A stretch of 64,000 nucleotides of DNA from Halomicrobium urmianum (lineage in GTDB: Archaea; Halobacteriota; Halobacteria; Halobacteriales; Haloarculaceae), in assembly GCF_020217425.1 (NCBI RefSeq), contig NZ_CP084092.1, positions 1-64,000 of the forward strand, in the 5' to 3' direction. Each line of letters begins with the position of its first letter. Position 1 is the first letter of the stretch. The position numbers and the translations under genes are program-made. Positions 1 to 30,039 of the stretch are shown here, in pieces. The notes below the pieces were generated by a model. That model saw only the letters and a program-made list of their open reading frames with translations. It ran no database searches and was not told the DNA's origin.

Positions 1-47
1 ACTCCTCTGGAGACGGCTAGGGTTGCGTACGAGAAAGACGCCCACAA

Positions 48-451
48 TTACAGACAGTCGTAACAGAAGGTTGATACAGACTGTTGTAGCAGACGGCCGG
101 TACAGATGGCTATACAGTAGGCCGCAAGCGTTTCCACAACCGGCACGGCGATCGGGAACGAATCGGGGCGAACGACTGTACGTCTAATCTGTTACAGCGA
201 GGGGGGGACAGACAGCCATAACAGACAGACGTTACAGAGGACTGTGGCCGATACGGGCATGCACGGCCAGAGGACAATTCGAGGCAGATCTCCATCACAA
301 CTATCAATTATGGAAGTCTGTTACAGTCGTCTGTTGCAGATACCACAAATTGTAGAACGCCGCCAGGAGAGCTATCGCACGAGTTTTCTAATTACAGACG
401 TCTGTTACAGACACCAGACACAGATAGCTGGCACGTACGTCTGACACAGAT
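48..451. repeat. 13-bp-phased iteron arrays upstream of the par operon
   Basis: Copies of an 8-bp motif close to TTACAGAC recur with an exact 13-bp period. Start positions are 48, 61, 74, 87 and 100; then 192, 206, 219 and 232 (one 14-bp step); then 321 and 334; then 392, 405, 418 and 444 (one slot empty). The strongest copies are at 48, 392 and 405. The arrays fill the space before the ParA gene and are repeated downstream of its partner at 2235. By analogy with plasmid and chromosomal partition loci they are probably the centromere-like (parS) or operator sites of this system; that role is inferred. No convincing gene was seen in 1-475. Confidence 0.8.
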
Positions 452-481
452 TTATAGTACAGGAGTGGAAAAGGGGTGCGT

Positions 482-1474
482 ATGATAACGGCCGTGGTCT
501 ACTCCGAGTCGGGTGGGACGTTCAAGACGACGATGACGGCCAACCTGGCAGTCGCACTGGAGCGGATGGGTCAGGACACGCTCGTCATCGACCTGGACCC
601 CCAAGAGGGGAACTTGACCAGTCTCTTCGACGTCGGCGAACACCGGAGCGACCCGGAAGCCGACAACCTGGTCAAGCACGTCCTCGACATGCCCGACGGG
701 GACTTCGGGGAGCTGATCGAGACGTCTGACGAGGGCGTCGACGTCGTCCCGAGCCACGACATGCTCGGGGACTTCACCTCGAACCTGGAGCAGAAGATCT
801 CCTATGAGACGGGCATGAAGAACATGGATCGCGACGACTACCCCCGCTTCGAGCTGCTGTACGAGCTGCTCTGGGAGACGGAAGAGCTCCACGAGGAGTA
901 CGACGCCGTCCTCATCGACCCGAACGCGCGAGCGGAGGACCTCCTCTACAACGCGATCTTCGCGCTCCGGACGCTCGTCGCGCCCGTCAAACCCGCCGGG
1001 AAGGGGAACCTGAGCCTGGACGGGCTCGAGGAGCTCGTCGGGAACATGGAGACCGAACTCGACATCGAGATCGGGCTCTCCTGCGTCGTGCCCTCCGGCG
1101 TCGGCCAGACAAACGCCCACCGGCAGTACCAGAAGCAGTTCGCGAACACGGAGGCGTTCGACACGCCAGTCACCATCGGGAACCGAGAGAGCCTCATGGA
1201 CGCCATGTGGGAGGCCCGAGGCTCGGCGTTCAAGGTGGTCGAGGAACGCTGGAAGACCTTCGAGAAGGACGGCGAGATGGTGAGCGAACCGGGGCAACGG
1301 CGCGTCCGGGACCGAGAGATAGAGACGTTGCGGCGGCTGTACGAACTCGCACAGTTCGTCGCGACCGAGACGTTCGACGGCGACGCCGACCCGGTACTGG
1401 AACTCGACATCGAGGACTACGACAATCGAACCATCGACCTGCGCGAGCGCGAAACGGAGGCGACCACCGCATGA
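482..1474 (+). CDS. ParA/Soj-family partition ATPase
   Basis: P-loop ATPase of the ParA/MinD/Soj type, expected to drive DNA segregation by cycling on nucleoid DNA. The deviant Walker A motif is at residues about 8-15 (SESGGTFKTT), followed by VIDLDPQEGNLT (Walker A' / switch I region) and a VLIDPNA Walker B-like strand near residue 145. A GTG at 476 could also start the frame, but TTTATA at 451-456 lies about 27 bp before the ATG at 482, which fits leaderless transcription from 482. The stop overlaps the next gene (ATGA), so the two form an operon. Phased iterons lie upstream and downstream. Usually encoded on plasmids or secondary replicons in haloarchaea, though chromosomal copies exist. 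Confidence 0.9.
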   Translation: MITAVVYSESGGTFKTTMTANLAVALERMGQDTLVIDLDPQEGNLTSLFDVGEHRSDPEADNLVKHVLDMPDGDFGELIETSDEGVDVVPSHDMLGDFTSNLEQKISYETGMKNMDRDDYPRFELLYELLWETEELHEEYDAVLIDPNARAEDLLYNAIFALRTLVAPVKPAGKGNLSLDGLEELVGNMETELDIEIGLSCVVPSGVGQTNAHRQYQKQFANTEAFDTPVTIGNRESLMDAMWEARGSAFKVVEERWKTFEKDGEMVSEPGQRRVRDREIETLRRLYELAQFVATETFDGDADPVLELDIEDYDNRTIDLRERETEATTA

Positions 1475-1962
1475 GCAACTTCAAGTCCGGCTCCGGGAAC
1501 CTCGACTTCGGCGACGGCGACGAGGACAAAGGCGAGAGCGGAGCCTCCGATGAGGCGGAGGTCGAACGGGAAGAACGAGAGCGGCCCGAAGCGGGTTCCG
1601 CCGAGTCGACGGCGGAGGACTCGGGAGGCGAAGCCCGGTCGGGACGGACCGACACCGACGAACGAACGGCGACTGACCGGGAGACAGTGACAGAAACGGA
1701 TCCGGAACCGTCTATCGACGAGTACCCCTACTTCGTCCGCCGGAACAACGTCGGCGACGAGCGCGACACCCGCCTCGAGATCCACGTCCGCGACGAGGTC
1801 GCCGACCGCGAGGCCGAGTTCCGGAACGCCGTCGCAGAGCGCCTCGACGCCGGCGAGATCTCGAAGACAGACGCCCGGGAGTTCGCCCTGCTCGCGGCGT
1901 ACGAACACCCGGAGAAGGTAGCCGAACTGATGGAAGACGAAGGGTTCGGCGCGCTCGACTAG
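1471..1962 (+). CDS. Acidic ParA-partner protein, probable iteron-binding adaptor
   Basis: 163 residues. The first 90 are acidic and low in complexity (Glu, Asp, Ser, Thr), typical of a disordered arm. The C-terminal 70 are ordered and helical, with YPYFVRRNNVGDERDTRLEIHVRD followed by a helix-rich tail (KTDAREFALLAAY...). The ATG overlaps the parA stop by 4 bp, so translation is probably coupled. Position and architecture (disordered arm plus compact C-terminal domain) match the second gene of two-gene partition loci. I do not recognise a named family, so DNA binding to the neighbouring 13-bp repeats is an inference. No ParB-type HTH or clear ribbon-helix-helix signature is visible. Confidence 0.75.
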   Translation: MSNFKSGSGNLDFGDGDEDKGESGASDEAEVEREERERPEAGSAESTAEDSGGEARSGRTDTDERTATDRETVTETDPEPSIDEYPYFVRRNNVGDERDTRLEIHVRDEVADREAEFRNAVAERLDAGEISKTDAREFALLAAYEHPEKVAELMEDEGFGALD

Positions 1963-2322
1963 AACGCCCCTGACACGGGATTTCGAGAATCGGGGGGACA
2001 TGGTTGATATAGCCAGATGCGATTTATGAATTGCTAGACGGACGGCCTCAGCTGGTTTTCGGCAGCGGTTGTGAGACTCCAGTGACAGGACGTGCCGCCG
2101 GTCAGTCGAACAGACACTACGAGAGTCCCGTCAGTCAACCGGGATCGCGAAACAGCGTTCTGGCGTCGATCAGACGTCGTGGGGTCCCGCAGCGATGGTC
2201 TGGCCGAGTATGAGGCCGCTGACCTCGATATCTGTCACAGCTATCTGTTACAGATATCTGTAACAGGCATCCGATACGCCAGGCACAGCCAGTGGAGCGT
2301 GGGCGGGAGGCAAAACGCGATG
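1963..2322. other. Intergenic region after the par operon
   Basis: No convincing gene. It holds the second iteron cluster (2235-2268, listed separately) and the 3' end of the convergent regulator gene. Two short open frames cross it, but they have no recognisable content. Confidence 0.6.
2235..2268. repeat. Three-copy iteron cluster downstream of par
   Basis: TCACAGCT at 2235, TTACAGAT at 2248 and TAACAGGC at 2261 sit exactly 13 bp apart and match the arrays in front of parA. The partition operon is therefore bracketed by the same phased motif on both sides. Confidence 0.75.
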
Positions 2323-3381
2323 TCAGCGCTCGGCGAGTGTTACCGACGAAGCCTCGTAGTCCTCGAGGAAGGTCCCGGGCCCGCCGACGGGGAGTTTGCT
2401 GCTACCGGTGTCCACCACGAGGGAGCATTCGACCGGGAACGAACTGGTAAACGGCTCGACGATCCCCTGCCTCGTTTCGGTGATAGTTCCCTGGATAGTC
2501 TCCCTGTGGGGGGCGTCCCGGAGCGGTGTCACAGACAGATCAGCCGCTACGGTACGGTCGGCATGGAGGTGTAACGTCGAATCGACCACTGCGTGCCTGA
2601 AGTTGTCGTAGGTCGCAGGCAACTGGCGCGGCGTGTGAGTACAGACTTCCTCCGAGACGGGCCAGTAATTCGCGAGGAGTGAGCCGACGAGGATGGGCGC
2701 GATGTCCGGCTGGGAGAACGTAATCGCCCGCTTGTCGCGGTTCGACCGGGAGTTCATGCCGACGGGCGCGATCACGCCGTACTGCTGATCGACTGTCAGT
2801 ATCATCGGGGCGACGTGGTCCCACGATCGGGCGACTGTCGCGACTCCGTCGAGATCGGAATCGAACGACGTCGTGCCGGCGTCGCTGACGAGCAACAGCG
2901 TGAGGACGCCGCGATCCACCGCTGCTTCGAGCTCGTCGACGAACTGCGGCAGGTGACGGGCGGGAATCGAGAGCGTGATCTCGCTGTCGGCGGTGGCGAT
3001 GAGGTCGGCCATCCGGCGCAGGACAGTAATCCGTGATTTGAAGACGTCGAACGGCCGGTACTCGTCCTCCGTCGTGGTGTACCACTCGGAGAGTGCCGGC
3101 GTCACCGCCTCGAGTTCGTCGGTCAGGACGCCGATCGCCTCCTCCGGCTTTCGCGCCCGGATCGTCGTCGGTGAGGCGGATTTGTCGACGTCGACGAAGC
3201 CGCGCTCCTCGAGTCGTTCACTCACGTTGTAGACGTAGCGCTTCGAGACGTCGGCCGCGTCGGCTATCTCGCTCGCCGATCCGTCGCCCTGACGCAGGAT
3301 CGAGAGGTACGTGTTGACCTCCTTCTCCGACATCCCCAGTTGCGTCAGCCGATCCACTACCGTCGATTCGTCCATTGACAT
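2323..3381 (-). CDS. TrmB-family transcriptional regulator
   Basis: N-terminal winged HTH typical of TrmB: LTQLGMSEKEVNTYLSIL, then SEIADAADVSKRYVYN as recognition helix and LEERGFV as the start of the wing. A middle linker (KPEEAIGVLTDELEAV) is followed by a C-terminal TrmB effector domain of about 230 residues; TrmB proteins bind sugars there. Possible starts are 3393, 3381 and 3375. An A-rich stretch near 3408-3412 (minus strand) lies about 28 bp before 3381, which is why 3381 is used. It is divergent from the solute-binding lipoprotein gene, so control of that gene and the GH3 enzyme is likely, with oligosaccharides as probable ligands. Confidence 0.88.
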   Translation of the reverse strand: MSMDESTVVDRLTQLGMSEKEVNTYLSILRQGDGSASEIADAADVSKRYVYNVSERLEERGFVDVDKSASPTTIRARKPEEAIGVLTDELEAVTPALSEWYTTTEDEYRPFDVFKSRITVLRRMADLIATADSEITLSIPARHLPQFVDELEAAVDRGVLTLLLVSDAGTTSFDSDLDGVATVARSWDHVAPMILTVDQQYGVIAPVGMNSRSNRDKRAITFSQPDIAPILVGSLLANYWPVSEEVCTHTPRQLPATYDNFRHAVVDSTLHLHADRTVAADLSVTPLRDAPHRETIQGTITETRQGIVEPFTSSFPVECSLVVDTGSSKLPVGGPGTFLEDYEASSVTLAER

Positions 3382-3607
3382 GGAGACGCGCATCCGTCCA
3401 ATTACTCTTTTTGGACGACGGCCACCCCCCCGGTCCTCCGGCCCCGGCGATAGCGACTCGTCGGTTGTTCGGGACCGTCGTAGCCGGTTCACTGAAGACG
3501 TCCGTACCCGGTTGCGACGGCGAAGCGACTGATGAGGAGGGTAATATTGCCTGTAGTTACGAAGGTATTCAACAATATTATGGTGATGAACGCGTTGACC
3601 GTAGACG

Positions 3608-5446
3608 ATGACAGGGTCACAGGAGTACACGGACGTTCTGAGCCGCCGCCGGTTCGCCGAGCTCGCCGGAGCCACCGGTGTAGTCGCACTCGCAGGCTGT
3701 ACCGGCGACGGGGGAGACGGCGGCACCGGCGAGTCGACGGATCCGTCCGACGAGAACGCCAGCGAGGGAGACGGGGGCGACGGGACGCAGGCGTACGACA
3801 AACAGCACCTGAGCCGGACGAACGTCGTGCCGGCGAACGCGCAGTTCAACCTCCAGAACCCGAACAGCCGCTCCGCGATCGCGTACCAGCTGGTGTTCGA
3901 CGAGTTCACGAAGTTCAACTACGCGCGCGGCGAGTTCGTGCCGCACGCGATCAGCGACTGGGAGTTCACCGGCGACACGTTCGAGATGACCGTCCGCAAG
4001 GGACTGACCTGGGACGACGGCGACCCCGTCACCGCCGAGGACATCGCGACCCAGCTTCGACTCAATCAGATCACGAACGGGTCGATGTGGAACTACACGG
4101 AGAGCGTCGACACGCCCGACGAGCGGACGGTGGTGCTCACCCTCCAGGGAGACGTCAACCCGCGGATCATCGAGTTCGACGTGCTGGGCGACAACTGGGT
4201 CCACCAGAAGGCCGACGTCTTCGGGGAGTACCTCGAAACCTATGAGAGCGGCGACGAGGACGAGGCCGCGCGCCAACTCCAGGAGTTCGCCTACCAGGAC
4301 GTCGTCGCCTCGGGGCCGTTCTCGCTCGAGCAGGCCGGCCAGCAGCAGCTTCTCACTACCCGCCGCGACGACCACCCGGATTCGGAGAACGTCAACTTCA
4401 GCGAGTACGCGTTCCGGTACATCGACGGCAACCAGCAGACCCACCAGGCGCTGATCAACCTGACCGTCGACTCGATCCCGATCGTGTTCGCGCCGCCCGA
4501 GGTCGTCGACCAGATGCCCGACGCCGTTCAGCTCGAAACGACGCCGGGCAAGTGGGGAATGGGGCTCGTCCCGAACCACGAACACAGACACGCAGGCGAC
4601 CGCGCGGTCCGGCAGGCCATCCAGTACGTCGTCGACCGCAAGGCCGTCGTCCAGAACGTCGGCGACACCCTCAAGCAGGCGCCGGAACTCCCGGTCGGCA
4701 TCCCCTCCGACGACCAGGAGCGCTGGCTCGGCGACGCGATGTCCGACTTCGACGACTACGGCGTCGGCGAGACGATGACCGACGAGGCGACGGCCGTCCT
4801 CAAGGAGGCCGGCTACTCGAAGAACGACGGCACCTGGCAGGACAGCGACGGCAACCCGGTCAGGCTCCCCGTCACGGCGCCGGCCGGGTGGTCAGACTGG
4901 ATCACGGCGACCGAGACGATCGTCGACCAGCTCAACGCCTTCGGCTTCGAGGCGACGGTCGACTCCCGGAGCTACGACGCGATGGCCAGCACGGTCTGGC
5001 CCAACGGCGACTTCGCCCTCTCGGCCGGGAGCTGGCTCCCGGGCGGCGCCAGCGCGGCGTTCCCCTACTTCTCGCTGTATCACCAGCTCGTCGAGCACGC
5101 GTCGATACCGTCGAACTACCCCGCGATGATCGAGTCCCAGGGCGGCTCCGAGGCCGACGTGACCGTCCCCGGAAGAGACGGCGACGACCTGACCGTCAAC
5201 CCCAGTGACCGCCTCGAGGAGCTCTCGCAGACGTCGGACGACGCGGCGATCCAGGAGATCGTGTCGGAGCTGGCCTGGGTGACCAACGTCGACCTGCCGG
5301 TCATCCCCGTGATGGAGAAGCTCGACGAGACCTTCCTCACGACCGACGAGTGGTCGGTTCCGGAACAGGGCTCCGAGAAGAACCAGGTGAAGTGGCCCAA
5401 CGCCTGGCTCCCGAAGCAGGGAGACCTGACGTACACCGGCGAGTGA
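3608..5446 (+). CDS. ABC transporter substrate-binding lipoprotein, family 5 (peptide/oligosaccharide)
   Basis: 612 residues. The N-terminus has a Tat motif (SRRRF), a hydrophobic core and a lipobox ending LAGC, so it is a membrane-anchored lipoprotein exported folded. A Gly/Asp/Ser-rich linker follows, then a DppA/OppA-type binding domain with signatures such as FEMTVRKGLTWDDGDPVTAED and the late YDAM...LSAGSW block. TATA-like AATATTA near 3574 precedes the start by about 32 bp. Family-5 proteins bind peptides, but many archaeal members bind gluco-oligosaccharides. Next to a TrmB regulator and a beta-glucosidase, sugars are the better guess. No permease or ATPase genes lie in the window, so the rest of the transporter must be elsewhere. 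Confidence 0.9.
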   Translation: MTGSQEYTDVLSRRRFAELAGATGVVALAGCTGDGGDGGTGESTDPSDENASEGDGGDGTQAYDKQHLSRTNVVPANAQFNLQNPNSRSAIAYQLVFDEFTKFNYARGEFVPHAISDWEFTGDTFEMTVRKGLTWDDGDPVTAEDIATQLRLNQITNGSMWNYTESVDTPDERTVVLTLQGDVNPRIIEFDVLGDNWVHQKADVFGEYLETYESGDEDEAARQLQEFAYQDVVASGPFSLEQAGQQQLLTTRRDDHPDSENVNFSEYAFRYIDGNQQTHQALINLTVDSIPIVFAPPEVVDQMPDAVQLETTPGKWGMGLVPNHEHRHAGDRAVRQAIQYVVDRKAVVQNVGDTLKQAPELPVGIPSDDQERWLGDAMSDFDDYGVGETMTDEATAVLKEAGYSKNDGTWQDSDGNPVRLPVTAPAGWSDWITATETIVDQLNAFGFEATVDSRSYDAMASTVWPNGDFALSAGSWLPGGASAAFPYFSLYHQLVEHASIPSNYPAMIESQGGSEADVTVPGRDGDDLTVNPSDRLEELSQTSDDAAIQEIVSELAWVTNVDLPVIPVMEKLDETFLTTDEWSVPEQGSEKNQVKWPNAWLPKQGDLTYTGE

Positions 5447-5614
5447 CCGCGGCCGACGCCGAACTCGGCTGACGGTCGACGCTCCTGCAGCCCCCGGTCC
5501 CGCGGAACGGCGCTGACTCGTGGCCGTCCCGGCCGAACGGGGCATCTCTCGGCCGCCGAACGCAGTGTGCAGTAGTATTTCGTACGCTATATCGACACTC
5601 TGACACGACAAGCT

Positions 5615-7819
5615 ATGACGGACATGGACACGTCCGATCCCCCGGACGGACAGACGACGGAGAATCGCATCGAGACGCTCCTCGACGAGATGACGCTCGA
5701 AGAGAAGGTCGGGCAGCTCAATCAGCTGAACGGGTCGGATCAGACCGGTCCGGCCGTCGAGGACGTCGACCTCGAGGCGGAGATTCGAGCGGGACGCGTC
5801 GGGTCGGTGCTGAACGCCGACGGGCTGGCGGCCCGCCGCCGATACCAGCGGCTCGCCGCCGAGGAGTCGCGGCTCGGGATTCCCCTGCTCTTCGGATTCG
5901 ACGTCGTCCACGGCTATCGCACCATCTTCCCGATCCCGCTGGGTGAGGCCGCGACGTGGAACCCGGACCTCGTGGAGTCCGCGGCCGACGTCGCGGCGTC
6001 GGAGGCCGCGGCCGCCGGGATCAACTGGACGTTCGCCCCGACGGCGGACGTGACCAGAGACGCCCGCTGGGGACGGGCAATGGAATCGAACGGGGAGGAC
6101 CCGTACCTCGGAGCCCGAATGACGGCTGCCCGCGTCCGGGGGTTCCAGGGAGACGACCTGGCCGCGACCGACAGCGTCCTCGCGTGTGCGAAGCACTTCG
6201 CGGGGTACGGGGCCGTCGAGGCCGGTCGCGAGTACAACACGGTCGACGTGTCGGAGAGCGCGCTCCGCGACGTCCACCTCCCGCCGTTCGAGGCCGCCGT
6301 CGACGCCGGCGTCGGGTCGGTGATGAACGCCTTCACCGTTCACGACCGCATCCCCGCCGGAGCGAGCGAGCACCTCGTGTCCGACGTACTCAAGGGCGAG
6401 TGGGCGTTCGACGGTGCCGTCGTCTCCGACTGGAACTCGTTCCGCGAGCTGATCTACCACGGCGTCGCGGCGGACGAACGCGACGCGGCCCGCCTCGCCA
6501 TCGAGGCCGGGTCGGACGTCGACATGGTCGGTCACGTCTTCGACGCCGAACTCGCGGAGCTGGTCGAGGACGGGGTCGTCGACGAGGCTCTGGTCGACGA
6601 CGCGGTCCGTCGCGTCCTGCGCGTCAAGTTCCGGCTGGGGCTGTTCGAGGATCCCTACCGGTACTTCGACGACGAACGCGAGGCGTCGGTCGCCCTCGCC
6701 GACGAGCATCGGACCGCGGCGCGAGCGGTCGCCCGCGAGTCCACCGTCCTCCTGGAGAACGACGGCGACCTGCTCCCGCTCGACGGCGACGAGGACGTGG
6801 CCGTCGTCGGAGCGCTCGCGGACAGCGCCGACGACGCCCTGGGTGAGTGGCGCGCCCGCGGCGACCCGGCGGACGCGGTCAGCGTCCTCGACGGCCTGCA
6901 GTCGGCCGTCGACGGCGCAGTCGACTACGCGACTGGGTACGAGCCGTTCGGCGACGGGGACGGACAGTTCGGGACTGTCACGGACGACCGCCGCACCGAG
7001 GCCGTCGAGGCAGTCGATGACGCCGACGTCGCCGTCGCCGTCGTCGGCGAGCACTGGCAGCTGTCCGGGGAGTGCGCGAGCCGGTCCGAGATCGGGTTAC
7101 CGGGCGATCAGCGGGCGCTACTCGAGGCCCTCGTCGCGACGGACACCACCGTGGTCGCCGTCCTCATGAACGGCCGGCCGCTCGCCATCCCGTGGACGGC
7201 CGAGCACGTCCCGGCGATCCTGGAGACGTGGTTCCTCGGAACGGAGGCCGGGACCGCCGTCGCCGACGTCCTGCTCGGTGAGTCCGACCCGTCGGGGCGG
7301 CTGCCCATGAGCTTCCCCCGGACGGTCGGACAGGTCCCCGTCCACTACGACCACCTGCCGACCGGGCGGCCAGCGGAGACCGCCGAGGACGGCTGGTCGA
7401 CGTCGTACGTCGACGTCCCGAACGATCCGCTCTACGCCTTCGGACACGGGCGCAGTTACGCGTCCTTCGAGTACGCGGACCTCGAACTCGACGCCGACGC
7501 GATCGAACCGGACGAAACTCTCACCGTCTCCGTGACCGTCGAGAACACGAGCGACGTGGCCGGCACAGAGGTCGTGCAGCTCTACACCCACGACGTCGTC
7601 GGAAGCCGATCGCGCCCCGCCAAAGAGCTGACGCGGTTCGAGAAGGTCGATCTCGAACCCGGCGCGAGCCGCACCGTGACCTTCGAGATCGAGACCGACG
7701 CCCTCGCGTTCTGGACCGCCGACGGCGAGATGGCCGCCGAACCCGGCGAGTTCGAGGTGTTCGTCGGCCGCTCCGCCGAGAACGTTCGACTCACGGACGC
7801 TTTCGAGCTCGTCGACTGA
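5615..7819 (+). CDS. Glycoside hydrolase family 3 beta-glucosidase
   Basis: 734 residues, the usual BglX size. The N-terminal TIM barrel shows the family's KHFAGYGAVEAGREYNT and GAVVSDWNSFREL blocks; the Asp in SDW (about residue 271) is the expected nucleophile. A middle alpha/beta sandwich (STVLLENDGDLLPL) and a C-terminal fibronectin-III-like domain with the PAKEL..F linker follow. It should release terminal glucose from beta-linked oligosaccharides by the retaining mechanism. No signal peptide is visible, so it acts in the cytoplasm on imported sugar. CTATATCG at 5587 sits about 27 bp before the ATG, indicating leaderless transcription. It lies directly after the binding-protein gene and is probably co-regulated with it. 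Confidence 0.93.
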   Translation: MTDMDTSDPPDGQTTENRIETLLDEMTLEEKVGQLNQLNGSDQTGPAVEDVDLEAEIRAGRVGSVLNADGLAARRRYQRLAAEESRLGIPLLFGFDVVHGYRTIFPIPLGEAATWNPDLVESAADVAASEAAAAGINWTFAPTADVTRDARWGRAMESNGEDPYLGARMTAARVRGFQGDDLAATDSVLACAKHFAGYGAVEAGREYNTVDVSESALRDVHLPPFEAAVDAGVGSVMNAFTVHDRIPAGASEHLVSDVLKGEWAFDGAVVSDWNSFRELIYHGVAADERDAARLAIEAGSDVDMVGHVFDAELAELVEDGVVDEALVDDAVRRVLRVKFRLGLFEDPYRYFDDEREASVALADEHRTAARAVARESTVLLENDGDLLPLDGDEDVAVVGALADSADDALGEWRARGDPADAVSVLDGLQSAVDGAVDYATGYEPFGDGDGQFGTVTDDRRTEAVEAVDDADVAVAVVGEHWQLSGECASRSEIGLPGDQRALLEALVATDTTVVAVLMNGRPLAIPWTAEHVPAILETWFLGTEAGTAVADVLLGESDPSGRLPMSFPRTVGQVPVHYDHLPTGRPAETAEDGWSTSYVDVPNDPLYAFGHGRSYASFEYADLELDADAIEPDETLTVSVTVENTSDVAGTEVVQLYTHDVVGSRSRPAKELTRFEKVDLEPGASRTVTFEIETDALAFWTADGEMAAEPGEFEVFVGRSAENVRLTDAFELVD

Positions 7820-7933
7820 AAGCGATCCGTCGACGGCCCGGCTCGGGTTCTCGGTCCAGTCGGTAGTCGCTCGTCACGCGGCACCGGCCGCACCGGACGA
7901 TGCGTACGGTCGTTCCGACGGCCCGGGGCGGTA

Positions 7934-8566
7934 TCAGTCGTAGCGGGCGACTGCCCGTACCGGTGCGCCATCTCCGTCGGCGAGTTTCAGCGGGAACGCC
8001 AGGAACCGGAACCGCCGGGGCAGGTCCGCCAGATCAGTGAGGTTCTCGAAGACGAGGTGTCCCCGGCCGAGCAGCGCGTGATGGGCCGGGACGCCTTGAG
8101 ATGGGGCGTCGTCGGTCGGCGTCGGGTCGACGTTGAGGGCGTCGATCGCGACGTCGTAGCCCTGCTCGACGCAGAACTCGGCCGCCTCGGGCGTCAGATG
8201 TGGGTGATCGAAGTACGTCCCCTCGCCCCAGTACTCGTCCCAGCCAGTGCGGACGACGACCAGGTCGGCGTCGGTGGCAGGGAGCGCGTCCGGCCCGATG
8301 GGCGACCGCGGTGAGCGACCGCGGCAGTCCGCCATGACGGCGTCGCGGGCGAATCGATCGACGTCGAGGGCGTCGAGGGTCCGGCCGTCGGCCTCGGTGT
8401 GACTCGGCGCGTCGACGTGCGTCCCCGCGTGGCTGCCGCACTCCACGGCGGAGACGCGGTAGCCGTCCTCCTGATGGGTCGCGTGCGGTTCGACGGTGAC
8501 CGTCGGGTCGCCCGGGAAGACCGGCATGTCGGTGTCGACGGTCCGGGTGAGGTCGCGGTAGGGCAT
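7934..8566 (-). CDS. Cyclase-family hydrolase (kynurenine formamidase-like)
   Basis: 210 residues. Carries the metal-binding signature of the cyclase / arylformamidase family, SHAGTHVDAPSH, plus a conserved N-terminal DLTRTVDTDMPVFPGDP. These zinc-dependent enzymes hydrolyse N-formylkynurenine, isatin or related amides and lactones; the substrate cannot be read from sequence. The start MPYRDL is chosen because it is the conserved N-terminus; frames extending to 8701 are low-complexity and run into the neighbouring gene. It is divergent from the luciferase-like oxidoreductase with an 83-bp gap, which suggests a shared control region. Confidence 0.88.
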   Translation of the reverse strand: MPYRDLTRTVDTDMPVFPGDPTVTVEPHATHQEDGYRVSAVECGSHAGTHVDAPSHTEADGRTLDALDVDRFARDAVMADCRGRSPRSPIGPDALPATDADLVVVRTGWDEYWGEGTYFDHPHLTPEAAEFCVEQGYDVAIDALNVDPTPTDDAPSQGVPAHHALLGRGHLVFENLTDLADLPRRFRFLAFPLKLADGDGAPVRAVARYD

Positions 8567-8649
8567 ACGGGAGTCGTCGGGAGGCTGGTACAAGACAGTG
8601 ACCGGACCGAGAGCCGAACGGTTACCCATCCCAGACACAGAACGGGGAC

Positions 8650-9675
8650 ATGGACATCTCAGCGGTCGACCTCTCGCCGGTCCCCGAGGACGGCACTGCA
8701 ACGGACGCGTACGAGAACACCGTCGAGGCCGCGCAACAGGCCGAACGGCTCGGTTTTGAGCGGTTCTGGGTGGCCGAACACCACGGCACGGCCGACGCCA
8801 TCGCGGGGACGACGCCCGAGGTCCTCCTGGGCCACCTCGCCGCGCAGACCGACTCGATTCGACTCGGGTCCGGGACTGTGCTGCTCAACCACTACCGGCC
8901 GTTCAAGGTGGCCGAGCAGTTCGGCGCGCTGGACGCGCTCGCACCGGGTCGCGTCGACGCCGGGCTGGGGCGAGCGAACGGGTCGCCGGCCGTCGACCGC
9001 GCGCTCGGGACGGAGCGGCGAGTGCGGAACCCGGACGAGGACCACGCCGAGAAGATCGAGGCCGTCGTTTCCCACCTCTACGACGAGTACCCCGACGAAC
9101 ACCCCTACGGCGGCCTGACGATCCCGTCCTCCGGCGAGGAGCCGCCCGCGCCGTGGGTGCTCGGATCCAGCCCGTCGAGCGCGGCGATCGCGGGCGAACT
9201 CGGGCTTCGCTACTGCTTCGCGGCGTTCATCCGACCGGAGCTGGCCACGCAGTCCTTCGAGGCGTACCGCGATCACTTCGAGTCGTCGCGGCTGGCCGGG
9301 AGTGTCGACGAACCGGAGGGCATGGTCGCGGTGAACGCGGTGTGCGCCGAGAGCGACGCGGAAGCGGCACGGCTCCGTGCGGTCGCCGAGGCGTCGTTCG
9401 AGCGGATCCAGCGCGGGGTCGTCGACAGGCCGTCCGTCGAGGAGGCCGTCGACGAACTCGGTGGCGTGCCCGACCCGACGCCCGAGACGCTCGACGCGGG
9501 CGAGTGGCCGCGGGCCATCTCCGGGGATCCGGACACGCTCGCCGGCCTGCTGGAGCAGCTCACCGAGCGCGTCGGCGTCGACGAGGTGATGATCCAGCAC
9601 GCCGTCGCGGACCACGAGGACGCGCTCCGATCGCACGAACTCCTGGCCGACGGCGTCGGACTGTCGACTCGGTGA
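8650..9675 (+). CDS. LLM-class (luciferase-like) flavin-dependent oxidoreductase
   Basis: 341 residues with the bacterial-luciferase-like TIM barrel: AERLGFERFWVAEHHG, RLGSGTVLLNHYRPFKVAEQF and LAPGRVDAGLGRANG are diagnostic of the MsnO8-type subgroup. Members are FMN or F420-dependent monooxygenases acting on small organic substrates. The rest of the barrel (PWVLGSSPSSAAIAGELGL, a substrate-side block) is intact. A GGGG run just before the ATG may act as a weak ribosome site. Neighbours are a cyclase-family hydrolase and an FAD oxidase, consistent with breakdown of an aromatic or amide compound; the substrate is unknown. Confidence 0.88.
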   Translation: MDISAVDLSPVPEDGTATDAYENTVEAAQQAERLGFERFWVAEHHGTADAIAGTTPEVLLGHLAAQTDSIRLGSGTVLLNHYRPFKVAEQFGALDALAPGRVDAGLGRANGSPAVDRALGTERRVRNPDEDHAEKIEAVVSHLYDEYPDEHPYGGLTIPSSGEEPPAPWVLGSSPSSAAIAGELGLRYCFAAFIRPELATQSFEAYRDHFESSRLAGSVDEPEGMVAVNAVCAESDAEAARLRAVAEASFERIQRGVVDRPSVEEAVDELGGVPDPTPETLDAGEWPRAISGDPDTLAGLLEQLTERVGVDEVMIQHAVADHEDALRSHELLADGVGLSTR

Positions 9676-9853
9676 CGGAGGACTCCGAAGGTAGCCACCC
9701 GGACGTGTTGCCCCGGACCGTCCTATTCCCACGAGGGAAATAGATGTTTGTTCACACTAACCGGATTAATTTTGATGAGGTCACAATTTGCACCCGTTAT
9801 CCTCCGTGAGTTGAGGATAATATTCAAGTAACGATGGGGTTTCCCGTAGTCAT

Positions 9854-11278
9854 ATGTCCGAAGATGTTCCCCCGGGACAGGTCCTCAACGAACTCGACGG
9901 CGAAGCGATCCGATCCCTCGAAGAGCAGTTGCGAGGGGCGCTCGTACTGCCGGACGGGACCGAGTACGAGGACGCGCGACGCGTCTGGAACGGCCTGGTC
10001 AACAGGTACCCCGCGCTGATCGTCCGCTGTGCCGGGGCGGCCGACGTGGCCGCGGCCGTCGAGTTCGCCGGCGACCACGACCTGCCGCTGTCGGTCCGCG
10101 GCGGCGCCCACCACCAGACCGGGAGCGCGATCGCGGAGAGCGGGCTCGTCGTCGACTGCTCGGAGATGACCAGCGTGCAGGTCGACCCCGAAGCACAGGT
10201 CGCCCACGTCGAACCGGGAACCAGGGCCAGGGACGTGCTCCACGAGACCCAGCAGTTCGGGCTGGCCACGCCAACCGGGAGCGCCGCCTCCGTCGGCATT
10301 CCCGGGTCCACGCTGGGCGGCGGCATCGGCTGGATCCGTCGCAAGCATGGCCTCGGCATCGACGCGCTCCGGTCGGTCACGGTGGTCACCGCGGACGGCC
10401 GGCTCCGGCGAGCCAGCCCCGAGCACAACGAGGACCTCTTCTGGGCGCTCCGCGGCGGCGGCGGAAACGTCGGCGTCGTCACCTCCTTCGAGTTCGACCT
10501 CTACGAGGTCGGACCCGAGGTGTACGGGCTGGGCGTCTTCTACCCGGCCGAGCACGACCGGGCCGTCTTCGAGCGGTTGCGCGAGGTGATGGCCGACGCT
10601 CCGCGGGAACTCACGACGCTGGCACTGAACGGCCACGTGCCGCCGCTGCCCGCGCTCCCGGCGGAGCTACACGGCGAACCCGCCGTCGCGGTGATGGGCT
10701 GTTACGCCGGCGACCGCGCCGAGGCCCAGGACGTCACCGCGCCCCTGCGGAACGTCGCCGAGCCACTGATCGACATGAGCGGTCCCATGCCCTACGAGCT
10801 GCTCCACGAACTGGGCGCCCAGATGTATCCCGACGGCCGCAACTACTGCCACCGCTCGGTCTTCCTCGACGACCTCGCCGGCGAGGCGCTCGACCTCGTC
10901 GTCGACGGCGTGGACGACGCCCCGTCGCCGGCGAGCGGAATCGGCGTCTGGCCGCTCGGCGGCGCGGTCCGAGACGCCGACGCCGGCGGCGCGTTCCCGT
11001 GGCGGGACAAGGATTACATGGTCACCGTCGAGGCCAACTGGGACGGTCCCGACTCGAAGGCCAACCTCGAGTGGGCTCGCGAGACCGACGTGGCGTTCCG
11101 CGAGGCCGGCGGCCAGGGTGCCTACGGCGGATTCACCGGCGTCGAGGAGGGGGACGACGAGGACTGGCCGCGCCGCGTCTACGGGGACTCCTACGACCGA
11201 CTCGCGGAAGTCAAACGCGAGTACGACCCCGAGAACCTGTTCCAGCTGAACGTGAACGTCGATCCGTCTGACGCCTAG
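9854..11278 (+). CDS. FAD-linked oxidase with BBE domain
   Basis: 474 residues. An N-terminal PCMH-type FAD-binding domain carries SVRGGAHHQTGSA, whose His is placed to form the covalent 8-alpha-histidyl FAD bond, and GIPGSTLGGGIGWIRRKHG. The C-terminus has the berberine-bridge-enzyme domain ending YDPENLFQLNVNV. The second (cysteinyl) flavin attachment seen in bicovalent relatives is missing: the GxxG loop reads GSTLGGG without Cys. Expected to oxidise an alcohol, amine or sugar with O2. It stands alone, 178 bp after the luciferase-like gene, behind an AT-rich promoter region. Confidence 0.9.
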   Translation: MSEDVPPGQVLNELDGEAIRSLEEQLRGALVLPDGTEYEDARRVWNGLVNRYPALIVRCAGAADVAAAVEFAGDHDLPLSVRGGAHHQTGSAIAESGLVVDCSEMTSVQVDPEAQVAHVEPGTRARDVLHETQQFGLATPTGSAASVGIPGSTLGGGIGWIRRKHGLGIDALRSVTVVTADGRLRRASPEHNEDLFWALRGGGGNVGVVTSFEFDLYEVGPEVYGLGVFYPAEHDRAVFERLREVMADAPRELTTLALNGHVPPLPALPAELHGEPAVAVMGCYAGDRAEAQDVTAPLRNVAEPLIDMSGPMPYELLHELGAQMYPDGRNYCHRSVFLDDLAGEALDLVVDGVDDAPSPASGIGVWPLGGAVRDADAGGAFPWRDKDYMVTVEANWDGPDSKANLEWARETDVAFREAGGQGAYGGFTGVEEGDDEDWPRRVYGDSYDRLAEVKREYDPENLFQLNVNVDPSDA

Positions 11279-11458
11279 TCCGATCCGTCTCGGGATTCAG
11301 AACGTCGGACAGAGGTCAGTCCACGCCGCGTCCGGCACCGGATCCTCAACGGCGACGGGGTCGGAGTTCCCATCGTTCGGTCCGATCAGTCGTCCGCCGA
11401 CGACACAGCGGCGACCGCACTAGCGTTCGTCTTCACCGTCGTCCGCCGTTCCGATGGA

Positions 11459-11531
11459 TTACAGACAGGCAGTACAGACGTCCATTGCAGACATCCATTG
11501 CAGACGCCCATTGCAGACGTCCATTGCAGAC
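11459..11531. repeat. Six-copy 13-bp iteron array
   Basis: TTACAGAC (11459), GTACAGAC (11472) and TTGCAGAC at 11485, 11498, 11511 and 11524 repeat with an exact 13-bp period. The last four sit in a 13-bp tandem unit TCCATTGCAGACG. Motif and period equal those of the arrays around parA 9 kb away, so this is probably another site for the same DNA-binding protein. The surrounding 11279-11876 gap shows no convincing gene. Confidence 0.8.
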
Positions 11532-11876
11532 AGTACATCTGCAAGCGACCGTGGGAACAGCCTGGTCTGCGACGAACGCGGTGTCGGAATCGGTAGACGA
11601 GGTCCGTATCCGGAAGCCGAGGGTTCCACTGCTTCCTCGCCGTCGACGAGATCGCTGTCCGGTCGCGATACGTCCCGGTACAGCCGACGAGCGCGTGGTA
11701 GACCCACGGGCCCGGTTGACTGGATCCAGAGAGGCACCGCTCCTCGCCGTGCGAAGCGGTGAATCGGGACGCGCGTCCACCGGTCGTGTGAGGCGTCGTC
11801 CTGTCTGCATCTCGTAGCGCAGTCATCCCCAGAACGTCCCCAAACATTCAAGCCCGGTGGCGAGGAGTAGCGGGTA

Positions 11877-13727
11877 GTGACTCCACTGCGGCAGGTCTGT
11901 ATACTGGTCGTCCTCGGGAGCGTCGTCGCGACCGGCTGTCTCTCGGGCGTCGCGCTCGGAGCGGAGCCGAGCGTCGACGCCCGTCCCGACTCGGCGAGCG
12001 CCGCCGGCGGAGTGTCCCAGACGGTCGTCGTCGGAAACGCCGACGAAGTGGGTCGCATCAACGTGACCGCCGCCTACGACACGCCGCCGCTCGCCTCCGA
12101 GTTCGTCGTCGATCTGGGACGGATCCCGGCGCCGGTGAACGTCACGTCCGTCGACGGGTTCGAGGCGCAGGGCGACGGTCGGTACCGGTGGACCGGCGCG
12201 ACCGACGACCCCGTCCTCGAGTACGTCGTCACGGTCGAGAACCCCCGGACCCTCACCGACGGTCCCGTGGCGAATCCGGGACCGTGGGCGTTCGTCGGGC
12301 CGGGCGCCGTCCTGCCGGGCATCGAGGGCCAGCGGCCCGAGACCACGCTCCGGACCGACGGGCCGGGGTACGAGACCGACAGCTGGCTGTTCCTCGGTTC
12401 GGTCGAGACGTACACCCGGACGGTCGAGGGGGAGCAAATCGTCCTGATCGTCCCGGAGGCCGCGGCGCCGGTCTCGCAGCCCGAGGCCATCCTCGCGCAC
12501 CTGGCGACGACGAGCCGGGAGATCGGGATCGGCGGCCGGAGCGACCAGGTGAACGTCCTCGCGCTCCCCTCGGTCGGCATCGAGACCCCGTGGAGCGGGG
12601 TGGCCTACCGCCGATCCGACGTCGTCGTCCGCGCGGGGGAGCCGATCGCGTCCGAGCCGAGCGTGTGGGCCCACGAGTACGCGCACACGCGTCAGGACTT
12701 CCGGACGACGCCGGCGACCGAGTGGCTGATGGAGGGAGGTGCGGACTACTTCGCCGGCTACGAGTCGCTCCAGCAGGACCGCCTCAGTTACCCGGGATTC
12801 GCGAGCCAGTCGTCGGACCGGCAGTTCGAGAACGCCGTGCTGGCCGACAGCGACACCTGGCAATCCGAACTCGTCCCCTACTTCAAGGGCGAGCGGGCGC
12901 TGGCGCACCTCGACGAGCAGATTCGCCTGGCGACCGACGGTAAGCGGACCCTCGCGGACGTCTTCAGGCGGCTGAACGGGGCAGACGAGCCGGTGACGCT
13001 GCGCCGGTTCGAGCGGACTGTCGCCGACGTCGCCACGCGGGAGACGGCCGGCGAGTTCAGGCGGTACGTCACCTCGCCGGCGTACGCGCCGCCGCCGCAA
13101 AACGAGTCGAACTACGTCGAGTCGCTCACCGACGACCCCGACGGGGACGGCCTCTCCAGCGCGGCGGAGATCCGGAACGGGACGTCCCCGTTCGACGAGG
13201 ACACCGACGGCGACGGGCTCTCCGACCGCGTCGAACTGGCTGAGGTGGGGACGGATCCGACTGACGGCGACACCGACGGCGACCGGCGCGCGGACGACGG
13301 GGAGTCCACGTTCCCGGCGACCGACCCGACGGTCGCCGACACCGACGGCGACGGCCTCGACGACAGCCGGGAACTCGAACTCGGGACGGACCCGACGGCC
13401 GCCGACACGGACGGCGACGGACTCAACGACAGCCGTGAACGCGAGCTGGGAACGTCACCCCGGTACGCGGACACGGACGGCGACGGCCTCACCGACGGGC
13501 GCGAGGTCGAACTCGGGACGGATCCGACGGCGGTCGACACCGACGGTGACGGTCTCTCCGACCGGGCGGAGCAGCGGGGAGCGACGGATCCGACGAGCGC
13601 CGACACCGACGGCGACGGGTTCGGCGACGCCGCGGAACGCGACCTCGGGACCGATCCCACGGAGCCAACCGACCGGACCGCGTATCTGCGAGCGTCCGTG
13701 ACGACCTTCGTGGACGGACTGCTCTGA
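11877..13727 (+). CDS. Secreted gluzincin-type metalloprotease with calcium-binding repeats
   Basis: 616 residues from a GTG start. A hydrophobic signal segment occupies residues 8-28. The catalytic domain has the zinc motif HEYAH followed by [13 protein letters not shown], whose second Glu is the expected third zinc ligand, as in gluzincins of the M1-like type. The C-terminal 190 residues are at least seven thrombospondin-type-3-like repeats ([10 protein letters not shown] and variants followed by GTDPT), which bind Ca2+ and form a stiff stalk. No PGF-CTERM or other sorting signal follows; the protein ends soon after the last repeat. Probably secreted or loosely attached to the envelope. Substrate unknown. 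Confidence 0.83.
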
Positions 13728-21646: not shown

Positions 21647-22807
21647 ATGACTGATTCGTCCAGACGGGATATCTTCTCAAGTGCAGGAGGGGACATCATT
21701 GCTAATCGCGAGCTTGTCGATATCAGTCATGTACCTGCTCTGGATCGAATCGTCGGTCGTGACACGGAAATCAGCGAAGTCGGCTCAGCGCTCGCGCCCG
21801 GTACGATCGGTGCGCCGCCGGAGTCGATAACGATTTACGGAAAGACCGGAACCGGGAAATCCCTGATCGCGAGAAGTATCACGTGTGAGGCTGTCGCCGA
21901 AGCCGAGGATAACGGCCACCGCCTCACATACGCCTACGTGGATTGCTCCGACGACGACACCGAGACACAGGCGAGCCGGGCTATGGCCCGTGCAGTCAAT
22001 GAACATCTTGGTGCCGATCGTGATATCCCGATGACTGGATACTCCGGTTCACAGTACCGCGAGATGACTTGGGATTTGCTCAACGATCACGACGTCGACG
22101 TCTTGATCACGATTCTCGACGAAATCGATCTACTATCTGACGACGATATTCTACGAAGCCTATCCCGAGCAAAGGAGAGCGGGAAAACAGACACGCATAT
22201 CGGGGTTATCTCAATCAGTAACAAAGTAGAGTACCGTCGAGAGTTGAGCGAACGGGTCGATTCTAGCCTTCAGGATCGAGAGTTCGTGTTTGACCCATAC
22301 GACGCCGAGCAACTCCAGGCAATCCTGACAAACCGTTCGGATGCGTTTGAAGACGGGGTCCTCCAAGAGGGAGTGATTTCACTCATTGCAGCCAAGGCGG
22401 CACAAGAACACGGGGATGCACGAAAAGCAGTCGATATGCTGTACGAAGCTGGCCGTATCGCTGAGCGGAAAGGCGCGTCAGAAGTAACTGAAGACATGGT
22501 CGAAGAAGCCGAGCATCGGGCGAACGTAAACCAGTTCAAGAGCCTTATCTCAGGTAGTGTTCAGCACGTCAAGTATCTCCTGCTGGCACTAGCGACCCTC
22601 ACCACTGATTCCGAAAAGGAACATTCCCAGTTCCGAACCAGCGAGATCTACGACCTCTACACTACAATCGCAGAGCGTGAAGGCTACGATCCCCTGTCGC
22701 AGAATCGTGTTCTCGAGTTACTGGACGAACAGGCATTCCTTGGCGTGACTGAAAATGAACTTACGAGCGGTGGTCGGGACGTGGAACGTATACCGTTCAC
22801 AGATTAA
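21647..22807 (+). CDS. orc1: Orc1/Cdc6 replication initiator (origin A)
   Basis: 386 residues. AAA+ core with Walker A YGKTGTGKS (about residue 66-74), Walker B ITILDEIDLLSDDD, sensor 1 VISISN, sensor 2 region with EHGDARKAVDMLYEAG, and a C-terminal winged-helix domain. It should bind the ORB boxes on both sides of the gene and load the MCM helicase. Codons are less GC-biased than in the chromosomal neighbours (many A/T third positions), so this initiator may have been acquired with its origin. ORB copies occur 5' (origin A) and 3' (22906-23070). Confidence 0.95.
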   Translation: MTDSSRRDIFSSAGGDIIANRELVDISHVPALDRIVGRDTEISEVGSALAPGTIGAPPESITIYGKTGTGKSLIARSITCEAVAEAEDNGHRLTYAYVDCSDDDTETQASRAMARAVNEHLGADRDIPMTGYSGSQYREMTWDLLNDHDVDVLITILDEIDLLSDDDILRSLSRAKESGKTDTHIGVISISNKVEYRRELSERVDSSLQDREFVFDPYDAEQLQAILTNRSDAFEDGVLQEGVISLIAAKAAQEHGDARKAVDMLYEAGRIAERKGASEVTEDMVEEAEHRANVNQFKSLISGSVQHVKYLLLALATLTTDSEKEHSQFRTSEIYDLYTTIAEREGYDPLSQNRVLELLDEQAFLGVTENELTSGGRDVERIPFTD

Positions 22808-22905: not shown

Positions 22906-23070
22906 ATACAGTCTGGGTGAGGGGATGGGTGACCAGAGTGACGGGGGGTATCGGAGTGAAAATGCAGACATCCAAATCACGGATACAGTCTGGACGAGGG
23001 GGGAGGGAAGAATCGGAGTGAAAACCCAGACACTCGAATCATAGATACAGTCTGGACGAGGGGGGAGAGG
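22906..23070 (+). repeat. Three downstream ORB copies of origin A
   Basis: Direct copies of the origin A box at 22906-22930 (variant GTCTGGGTGAGGGG), 22983-23008 and 23045-23070, all on the plus strand, spaced about 77 and 62 bp apart. They lie between orc1 and the convergent transporter gene. The rest of 22808-23181 shows no gene. Confidence 0.85.
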
Positions 23071-27847: not shown

Positions 27848-28658
27848 CCCCCACACCCCGTGTGCGAAATGAAAACGGTCGAGGAGAGGAGGGAGGGGAT
27901 TGCGAGATGGGGCCTGTTGTGATCGATTTTGTCGATTTCAAGCTGTAGAATGCTACTATATGTATATTTGAGGAAAGCAGACTAAAAAAGGAGGTTTTAT
28001 ATGGTATCATGCATAACTGTAACCGTATTGCAAACATCCCATATCTATAATAAAAAATAAGACTATATAGACAGGTACATCATACGTCTTTCACTATCGC
28101 GGAGTTCACAACGCGTAGCTTCAGTATTTCCATTTTGTACGACTCATGGCGACAAATCGGTGTCTCTCGCTTTCACGTCTGTTTCGTCCGCCGCTTGCTT
28201 TTGCGCCGATTTCACTTCGCACACGGGGTGTGGGGGTGAGAGGCCGCCGTCGTTCTTCGTCCTCGACCTCTACATGTTGAGTAGGGGGAGGCCTCGGGGT
28301 CGTCCGAGACAGTGGAGCCGTCTCGTGATGACGAGAGAGCTTCGATCTGCGAAGTCGCTCGTACTACGCCAGCAAATTCATCTTGCACACGGGGGGAGGG
28401 TAGAGCACCGTCGCCCGCTTTGAACTCAATCTGAGGCCGAGATGAGACTCACGACTTTTCATATCGCACACGGGGGGTGGGAGGGGAACAACCGCTCGAA
28501 CGGAGGCCAGGAGAATTCCCTGGTGGTCTTCATATCGCACACGGGGTGTCCGTCCGGAATTTGATTTCGCCCGCGGTCGGAGTGCTCGAAATCACCACCA
28601 CCTACAGTAGGCTTCTAGCCCGGAGATTCGCCAAATTTAACCTCGCACACGGTACCCA
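27848..28658. other. Replication origin B: six ORBs around an AT-rich element
   Basis: Boxes of consensus TTTCRYWTCGCACACGGGG, often extended by TGTGGG: one on the minus strand (27848-27875), then plus-strand copies at 28210-28237, 28375-28400, 28457-28485, 28528-28552 and a weak one at 28634-28658. The first two point away from an AT-rich stretch, 27940-28085, with runs such as CTATAATAAAAAATAAGAC; this is the likely unwinding site. The box core CACACGGGGTGTG is itself an imperfect palindrome. The weak last box lies just in front of the orc1 promoter, as in origin A. Confidence 0.88.
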
Positions 28659-28692
28659 TACCTATTTACGGGACGGCCTACACACGGAAACC

Positions 28693-30039
28693 ATGGCCGA
28701 CGGCGACGATCAACAGTCTCTCTCCAAGTCCATCAAAGGCCGTCTGCAGGAGGGAGTGCAGAACTCCGTTTTCAGGGACAAGGGGCTGCTCGACCCGGAC
28801 GCCGTCATCGACGAGGACCGGATCGTCGGTCGCGATCAGCAACTCGACGACATCATCACGTACCTCCGCCCGGCCCTGCAGGGCAACCGTCCGCCGAACA
28901 TGCTGCTCTACGGGCCATCGGGCACCGGCAAGTCGCTGATCATCAACGCCGTCTGCCAGCAGGTCCTCGAACTCGCCAATTCACAGGGCAACCAGTTCGG
29001 CGTCATCAAGATCAACTGCCAGACGATCAAGTCTCACGACCGCGCCGTCTACCGACTCGTGAAAAACGCCGCGACCAAGGCCGACGTCGACGTGGGCGTC
29101 CCCGAAAGCGGTATCTCGACGGACCAGAAGCTCAACCGCTTCTACGAGATCCTGAGCGATAACTTCGATTCGGTCATCATCATCCTCGACGAGGTCGACC
29201 TCCTCGTCGGTCGCCAGCGCGACCCCAACGACGAGCCGGCGTACTCGAAGTTGCTCTATCAGCTCTCGCGCGCGTCGCAGCTCGGCCGAATCGACGGTCA
29301 CGTCTCCGTCGCCGCTCTCACGAACGACCCCCGCTTCATGGAGGACCTCGACGGTCGGGCGGAGAGTTCGTTCAACCCGCAGGACGTCGTCTTCCCGGAC
29401 TACGACGCGAACCAGCTCCAGGCGATTCTCGAGCGTCGCCGCGACGCCTATCAGGACAGCGTCCTCGAGGACGGGATCATCCCGCTCAGTTCCGCGTTCG
29501 CGGCGCAGGACCACGGCGACGCGCGGAAGGCCATCGACCTCTTCAGGAAGGCCGGTGAGATCGCCGACCGCCGGGGTGAGGACACCGTGTGCGAGGAGCA
29601 CGTCCGCGACGCCCAGCGGGAGGCCGAACGCGACCGCACGCTGACGCAGATGCAGGGCCTGTCGACGCAGAAGAAGCTCTCGCTGTACGCGACTGCCATC
29701 GTGCAGGTCCACTCCCAGCGGAACCTGAACGCCGTTCCCAGCACCGTCGCCTATCGGGTCTATCAGTATCTCACGGACTTGCTGGACGCCGACGAGAAGT
29801 CACGCGACTCCTACCTCCGGTACATGAGCGAAGCTGAGACCTACAACTTCGTGACCTCGGAGAAACGCGGTCGGGGATACGGGAGTGGCGTCCACAAGGA
29901 GTACACGTTCATCGACGACCCCGACGTCGTCGCCGAGACGCTCCAGGCCGACATTCGTCTCGAGGAGATCGACGACGACGAGGACCTGATCAAGTCCGTC
30001 GTCACCGCTCAGATCGACGACTTCTTCGACGGGGAGTAG
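28693..30039 (+). CDS. orc1: Orc1/Cdc6 replication initiator (origin B)
   Basis: 448 residues from ATG 28693. AAA+ motifs: Walker A YGPSGTGKS (about residue 76-84), Walker B IIILDEVDLLVGR, sensor 1 AALTND, sensor 2 region DHGDARKAIDLFRKAG, then a winged-helix C-terminus. Codon use is typical of the chromosome, unlike the origin A initiator. CTATTTAC at 28667-28674 lies 25 bp before the start, so the mRNA is probably leaderless. ORBs flank the gene on both sides. This arrangement resembles the main chromosomal origin initiator of haloarchaea. Confidence 0.96.
   Translation: MADGDDQQSLSKSIKGRLQEGVQNSVFRDKGLLDPDAVIDEDRIVGRDQQLDDIITYLRPALQGNRPPNMLLYGPSGTGKSLIINAVCQQVLELANSQGNQFGVIKINCQTIKSHDRAVYRLVKNAATKADVDVGVPESGISTDQKLNRFYEILSDNFDSVIIILDEVDLLVGRQRDPNDEPAYSKLLYQLSRASQLGRIDGHVSVAALTNDPRFMEDLDGRAESSFNPQDVVFPDYDANQLQAILERRRDAYQDSVLEDGIIPLSSAFAAQDHGDARKAIDLFRKAGEIADRRGEDTVCEEHVRDAQREAERDRTLTQMQGLSTQKKLSLYATAIVQVHSQRNLNAVPSTVAYRVYQYLTDLLDADEKSRDSYLRYMSEAETYNFVTSEKRGRGYGSGVHKEYTFIDDPDVVAETLQADIRLEEIDDDEDLIKSVVTAQIDDFFDGE

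Follow-up and report, generated by a model that had tools for sequence, protein, structure and literature searches.

The nearest proven counterpart of the DNA element described here is the 3parS cluster of pAMI4, a repABC plasmid of Paracoccus aminophilus, which lies 11.5 kb from repC (PMC9040568). According to the published account, gel-shift, incompatibility and deletion experiments established that RepB binds this cluster and that the cluster causes incompatibility and is required for plasmid stability; its authors propose that 3parS was displaced by an insertion, and that a regulatory role may fall to a site within the par operon (PMC9040568). C3, a 399,575-bp replicon of the 4.25-Mb, six-contig genome of Halomicrobium urmianum, carries a feature of the same type: sites of the cognate kind that cluster at a distance from the par locus of this replicon, with no par genes of their own. 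The window that we analyzed comprises the first 64,000 bases of C3. As described, pAMI4 shares with C3 a size of about 0.4 Mb, a similar distance between the extra sites and par, and the clustering of these sites in a non-coding gap; the site inside the pAMI4 par operon can be likened to the arrays that C3 carries at par. In contrast, pAMI4 relies on the bacterial protein RepB and on separate parS sites, whereas the C3 partner protein belongs to another family and its sites form a 13-bp tandem array (PMC9040568). For C3 the comparison is an analogy.

Among archaeal systems, SegAB of Sulfolobales resembles the C3 locus in that the gene for a ParA-type ATPase overlaps the start of a second one that encodes a small putative DNA binder, and in that sites occur both upstream of the cassette and at scattered positions (PMC12284271, PMC9178275, PMC5120986). 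Both systems have 13-bp palindromes with a 6+1+6 layout, TCTAGA-S-TCTAGA in SegAB and ATCTGT-W-ACAGAT on C3 (PMC12284271). SegAB is described as chromosomal with sites mostly within genes, whereas the haloarchaeal sites abut in tandem on plasmids (PMC12284271, PMC9178275, PMC5120986). Haloarchaeal cassettes also differ from SegAB in having their own motif for each system, and we detected no sequence kinship between partner and SegB. The AspA-ParB-ParA system of pNOB8 similarly combines ParA with a DNA binder on an archaeal plasmid, and this binder is reported to spread helically from a palindrome; it comprises three proteins and a 23-bp palindrome, unlike the two genes and the arrays of 13-bp units on C3 (PMC5120986). 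Finally, the delta-omega system of pSM19035 offers a parallel to what we propose for the C3 partner, namely a small protein whose unstructured N-terminus makes contact with its ParA, and on that plasmid the protein is bound to runs of contiguous iterons in several locations (PMC4498918). These iterons are described as 7-bp heptads over three promoters, in contrast to the 13-bp palindromes of C3 and to its distal array, which lies off a promoter (PMC4498918). Full-text searches, judged by titles and abstract openings and with subscription papers outside their scope, returned no description of the ParA–partner family or of 13-bp arrays. Descriptions of how haloarchaea segregate their plasmids are few.

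The features of ParA-type partition present at the C3 locus are a gene for a ParA-family ATPase and repeated centromere-like sites beside the genes. The parA gene (482–1474, forward strand) encodes a Walker ATPase of 330 residues (Pfam AAA_31, E = 1.2e-17; CbiA, E = 2e-13). Its stop overlaps the start of the partner gene (1471–1962, forward strand), which codes for a putative centromere-binding protein of 163 residues. The C3 ParA is 72–88% identical to the best-matching places in 41 plasmid records; relatives that are at least 72% identical and loci found through ParA are labelled as haloarchaea, except for L168, a metagenome bin labelled otherwise. Canonical ParA proteins carry a signature lysine at the residue before the GG of the Walker motif. 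In the Walker A stretch of C3 ParA, SESGGTFKTT (residues 8–17, window 503–532), GG is instead preceded by a serine, a residue invariant in 14 sequences. On many haloarchaeal plasmids the NCBI pipeline names the partner "acyl-CoA dehydrogenase" (1471–1962; L118–L144), a name that received no support from family searches.

To score the repeats we used a symmetric 13-bp motif (consensus ATCTGTWACAGAT) derived from 259 sites located at most 560 bp upstream of parA on 27 other plasmids. Since this motif was learned from other plasmids only, circularity is avoided. By motif score, parA is preceded on the forward strand by five mostly right-half units at 43–107, three units at 201–239, the first of which is weak, three units at 303–341 and six units at 387–464, near the parA start. 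A further array of three palindromes near the consensus lies downstream of the partner gene (2230–2268), and it is here rather than at parA that the strongest palindromes scored on C3 are found. Few relatives have an array directly after the partner gene; L172, L185 and L187 have one.

The preliminary description of this DNA had pointed to a six-copy array far from parA. The array is real: six 13-bp units starting at 11454, 11467, 11480, 11493, 11506 and 11519 (forward strand, 11454–11531) follow each other in unbroken phase. The first two are divergent (ATTACAGACAGGC and AGTACAGACGTCC), and the remaining four are near-identical (ATTGCAGACNYCC). The six-row period-13 score has its window maximum, 21.05, exactly at 11454, beyond the maximum of 12.43 in 100 dinucleotide-preserving shuffles of the window. 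Tandem Repeats Finder reports 11475–11531 with period 13, 90% matches and a score of 100, whereas the arrays near parA score 67, 41 and 59. The array is therefore the cleanest, as had been claimed, with respect to copy-to-copy identity. As matches to the par motif its units are the weakest: they reach 0.1 to 9.5 bits, the lowest of all units scored, as opposed to up to 20.0 bits upstream of parA and 23.8 bits downstream of the partner gene. They are right-half sites: CAGAC is present in all six units, and the left arm of the palindrome is largely missing; three departures from the consensus are common to four of the six. Right-half units also occur in the array at 43–107, so this kind of unit is not foreign to the par locus. 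Even so, their affinity is expected to be lower. An inverted half-site, TTGCAGA on the reverse strand (11538–11544), is seen in the sequence directly past the array. Recent tandem copying fits the near-identity of the four units as well as selection does.

When all 399,575 bp of C3 were scanned with the independent motif, the ten best places for six consecutive units included positive runs only at 387 (57.6), 277 (37.7), 2204 (33.7), 11454 (32.8) and 43 (28.4). The next best place scored −23.9, and the same motif at control periods of 10, 11, 12, 14, 15 and 16 reached no more than −18.1 on C3. Exact TDRCAGA pairs spaced by 13 bp number eight in the 4.25-Mb genome, none of them outside positions 48 to 11,530 of C3. 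No array of the C3 par motif was found elsewhere in the genome, either by pattern search of all contigs or by motif scan of C2, C3 and C4. The C3 motif gave no run above control on C2 and C4, nor did the two C2 motifs on C3. Since the motifs do not cross between these replicons, the arrays go with the replicon that carries their par genes. By sequence, the distal array is almost certainly kin to the par iterons. The earlier suggestion of a distal centromere-like site holds in that the array belongs to the same 13-bp site family as the parA arrays and resides on the same replicon; its centromere-like role is what we infer.

In our reading, the fixed 13-bp phase upstream of haloarchaeal parA is a more important result than the distal array itself. 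In-phase 13-bp arrays precede parA at all 46 close-relative loci found through ParA, which are not 46 independent cases: they include L173, L191, L192 and L201, also among the 27 motif plasmids, two loci of one plasmid (L198 and L207) and broken ParA frames (L202, L203 and L206). The rule extends to 29 further par loci, 27 found through the partner (mostly 25–40% identical) and two on C2, most of which have repeat letters quite different from those of C3. Period 13 ranked top of 14 periods (8 to 21) at 28 of these loci, with a mean z of 6.44 versus at most 0.66 for any other period. This set includes L039, which has the same motif as the window, and excludes L042 (142 bp of upstream sequence only), L067 (no ParA in the locus) and L038 (the window's own locus). 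At the one exception, L035, where the reading frame had been assumed to begin within the array, period 13 came second; a 13-bp unit was learned once a later start was used. Palindromy of the learned units, which are rough, was significant at 14 of the 29 loci.

Second clusters recur among the relatives. With a strong cluster defined as a three-unit score of at least 30 outside −1300 to +100 of parA, the 46 loci (820 kb) contain six, in six loci (L170, L171, L172, L185, L187 and L190), and none at seven control periods. The other 40 loci have no second strong cluster within the stretch scanned. In L185 and L187 the cluster sits between the partner gene and an orc1 gene. Farther-off clusters are present in two or three of the 27 whole plasmids and absent from most: in W05, parA and a group of two units are separated by 167 kb in one direction and 113 kb in the other; in W11, three units lie 96 kb away; and W01:273987 is a borderline case with one palindrome and a weak second unit 75 bp past an orc1 gene. 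Sequence searches at several secondary clusters, including those of W05 and W11, revealed no remnant of ParA or of the partner. SMC-like genes adjoin the par cassette (L134, 2471–2714) or a secondary cluster (L171, 14550–16508) in two Natrinema records.

The exact pair is missing from three of the 27 plasmids (W16, W18 and W22), and a reversed control pattern gave one to four matches in eight of 28 records, some of them maybe inside arrays. Exact pairs are thus too weak to support single distal places, and scored runs were used instead. The exact pair at W20:72920 was taken as chance, and clusters in L196 and L204 were dropped as AT-rich noise. The plasmid with the best partner match outside this genome (G015:C5, 212 kb) has arrays at parA only and no distal cluster. 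No distal arrays were found for the other par systems G046, G052, G089 and G061 (40 kb each) or for the second par system of C2 (whole C2).

A distal array of this kind could have arisen by chance, or by simple tandem duplication of a microsatellite-like kind unconnected with par, and the four near-identical units are what slippage would give. Such an origin is hardly credible given a score far beyond that of shuffled sequence, a run that stands out from the rest of C3 with a motif from other plasmids, and exact motif pairs that occur in the genome only at par and at the distal array; for chance as such, the shuffles and the independent motif contradict it. The array might also be an operator from which the partner or another regulator controls a neighboring gene. 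It lies, as the preliminary description stated, in a gene-free gap of about 600 bp between a FAD oxidase and a protease-like gene: 598 bp without a recognized gene (11279–11876), bounded by the oxidase stop at 11278 and the GTG of the next gene at 11877. The GC content is 0.71–0.72 in the flanking genes, 0.632 in the gap and 0.513 in the array, and gap DNA searched against plasmids gave short matches only. The upstream gene (9854–11278, forward strand) encodes a FAD-linked oxidase (Pfam FAD_binding_4 and BBE). The downstream gene (11877–13727, forward strand) encodes a protein with TSP3 repeats (Pfam TSP3_bac) and a zinc-protease-like HEYAH motif of the HExxH type, read in the translation; its best homologues elsewhere are at most 39% identical over most of the query. 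That the array is upstream of a same-strand gene would suit an operator, and the parS arrays of pSM19035 are reported to overlap three promoters at which omega acts (PMC4498918). However, the array ends 345 bp ahead of the start codon of the protease-like gene, which is unlike an operator at a core promoter, and a TATA-like AAACATTCAA, read by eye, sits near that start. Homologues of the protease-like gene at 29 loci in relatives are also without such an array (best three-unit score below 0). On account of this distance and these 29 loci we rejected an operator of the protease-like gene, and regulation of either neighbor from the array seems very improbable. An RNA element was dismissed after an Rfam scan of 11200–12000 without a match. 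Replication iterons were discarded as well, because the gap is flanked by the oxidase and the protease-like gene and the two orc1/cdc6 genes of C3, at 21.7 kb (21647–22807, forward strand) and 28.5 kb (28477–30039, forward strand), do not adjoin it. Just past the first of these orc1/cdc6 genes are two 62-bp repeats, 87% alike (22950–23067), a candidate replication origin. Another repeat, of 30 bp in 3.2 copies at 98% (55957–56052), lies within long open frames of both strands.

A different origin is suggested by the sister plasmid C2 (418 kb). The motif of its par system (C2:388) is different from that of C3, and its two distal arrays, which score 47.8 (at 38,783) and 39.6 (at 53,403) against at most 13.6 in controls, each lie next to a 5′ fragment of parA; these fragments are approximately 200 and 150 bp long with 77% and 73% identity. 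By this sequence evidence the two C2 arrays are relics of par copies, which indicates that arrays outlive their genes as debris. The array at 11.5 kb could likewise be what was left when a second par locus, gained by duplication or by co-integration of a related plasmid, lost its genes but kept the DNA upstream of them; such a relic may still be bound without being under selection. Consistent with this idea, an array precedes a truncated ParA in W14, the extra arrays of W25 (L151) and W10 (L152) belong to second par copies, and the shared off-consensus letters of the distal units would be expected from a related but different par system. An inactive remnant is also what the preliminary description had named as the case against its proposal. 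The C2 arrays come close to that case. At 11.5 kb, however, a trace of parA or of the partner gene was revealed neither by tblastn, for which 14 ParA and 25 partner sequences served as queries, nor by blastn with the C3 par locus, a type of search that did detect the C2 relics. One of the C2 fragments, at 38 kb, likewise escaped the tblastn queries, so a remnant at 11.5 kb may have gone unnoticed if it is short and old. The six units are in intact phase, and several clusters elsewhere are equally free of remnants by the same test; a relic is a serious but somewhat unlikely explanation. Displacement provides yet another account, in which par arrays once stood on both sides of the genes and insertion of the 2.3–11.4 kb stretch moved one of them, which still works. 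The second array right after the partner gene, on C3 and in the three relatives named above, is in line with this scenario, as is the insertion suggested for 3parS by its authors (PMC9040568). On the other hand, the downstream array at 2230–2268 remains in place with different and stronger units, and the joined arrangement was not encountered in any relative: DNA similarity between window positions 1–12,500 and plasmids was confined to separate genes. We regard displacement as doubtful.

The partner gene is conserved alongside parA in relatives. The protein has no Pfam match at E 0.01, and so no ParB-type domain, and no match in NCBIfam or PHROGs. Its N-terminal tail reads MxxFKSGSGxLDFG with an invariant lysine. 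AF2 models, based on alignments of 37 and 40 sequences from which broken or missing frames (L193, L202, L203, L206 and L207) were excluded, predict a long acidic linker of low confidence and a three-helix C-terminal domain (helices 108–124, 132–145 and 147–156, preceded by an unpaired stretch of rising confidence). In fold comparison with VIA the model matched CopG best, with Z 3.4 and an rmsd of 2.3 for 42 aligned residues, and then NikR, with Z 3.0; the best rows, which also contain a plant-type transcription factor and MazE-mt1, range from Z 2.9 to 3.5. These weak matches point weakly to ribbon-helix-helix proteins. The Pfam ribbon-helix-helix families matched none of the 40 partner members, and Foldseek with the partner model gave nothing at E 0.001 or better. 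SegB is absent from the rows of the fold search, which is not evidence against a likeness to SegB. A profile of the 40 C-terminal domains run against PDB sequences, a set that includes SegB structures, returned no SegB up to E 10.

We favor the interpretation that the distal array is a secondary centromere-like cluster of C3's own ParA–partner partition system, and assign it a probability of about 0.55. Positive runs of an independent motif, exact pairs restricted to C3, recurring clusters free of remnants, the period-13 rule and the pAMI4 analogue argue for it; the lowest-scoring units, the 40 of 46 loci with no second cluster, the debris on C2 and the weak fold match of the partner weaken it. 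Binding of the partner at the array is a likely prediction, while the chances of a role in partition are about even. In the mechanism that we infer, a dimer of the 163-residue partner would bind each palindrome ATCTGT-W-ACAGAT through its C-terminal domain. Since the units abut without spacers, neighboring dimers could form a continuous helical filament over each array, and the conserved N-terminal tail, on its disordered linker, would contact ParA. By analogy to ribbon-helix-helix partners and SegB, as these are described, one dimer per palindrome, contact between neighbors, winding, and a tail that reaches ParA would probably all be involved (PMC12284271, PMC9178275). The main complex would assemble on the arrays upstream of parA, probably with autoregulation as a further effect, and downstream of the partner gene. 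The array at 11.5 kb would then be a further loading site with weaker half-type units that are filled cooperatively, and it would add a grip point or join the same focus as the main complex. Bridging or spreading from the distal array, which had been raised previously, is possible; the site could instead nucleate its own complex, have been moved by insertion, or be a relic.

Taken as a whole, we offer a broader picture only tentatively and judge it rather unlikely: haloarchaeal megaplasmids would share an undescribed partition family whose small partner, with no sequence relationship to ParB, winds around 13-bp palindromes that abut one another. The phase would be fixed for the family, and the letters would be plasmid-specific and set incompatibility; several filaments, at par and kilobases away, would be gathered into one multi-point segregation focus. 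The parA–partner cassette is also found on pHS3 of Halobacterium salinarum R1, which makes binding, incompatibility and the role of distal clusters directly testable. A fixed 13-bp phase with changing letters would allow the centromeres of haloarchaeal megaplasmids to be predicted from sequence, and their incompatibility groups may perhaps be predictable in the same way. As for C3, the segregation machinery may take hold of each copy at several places, or the distal array may be a leftover of such a site.
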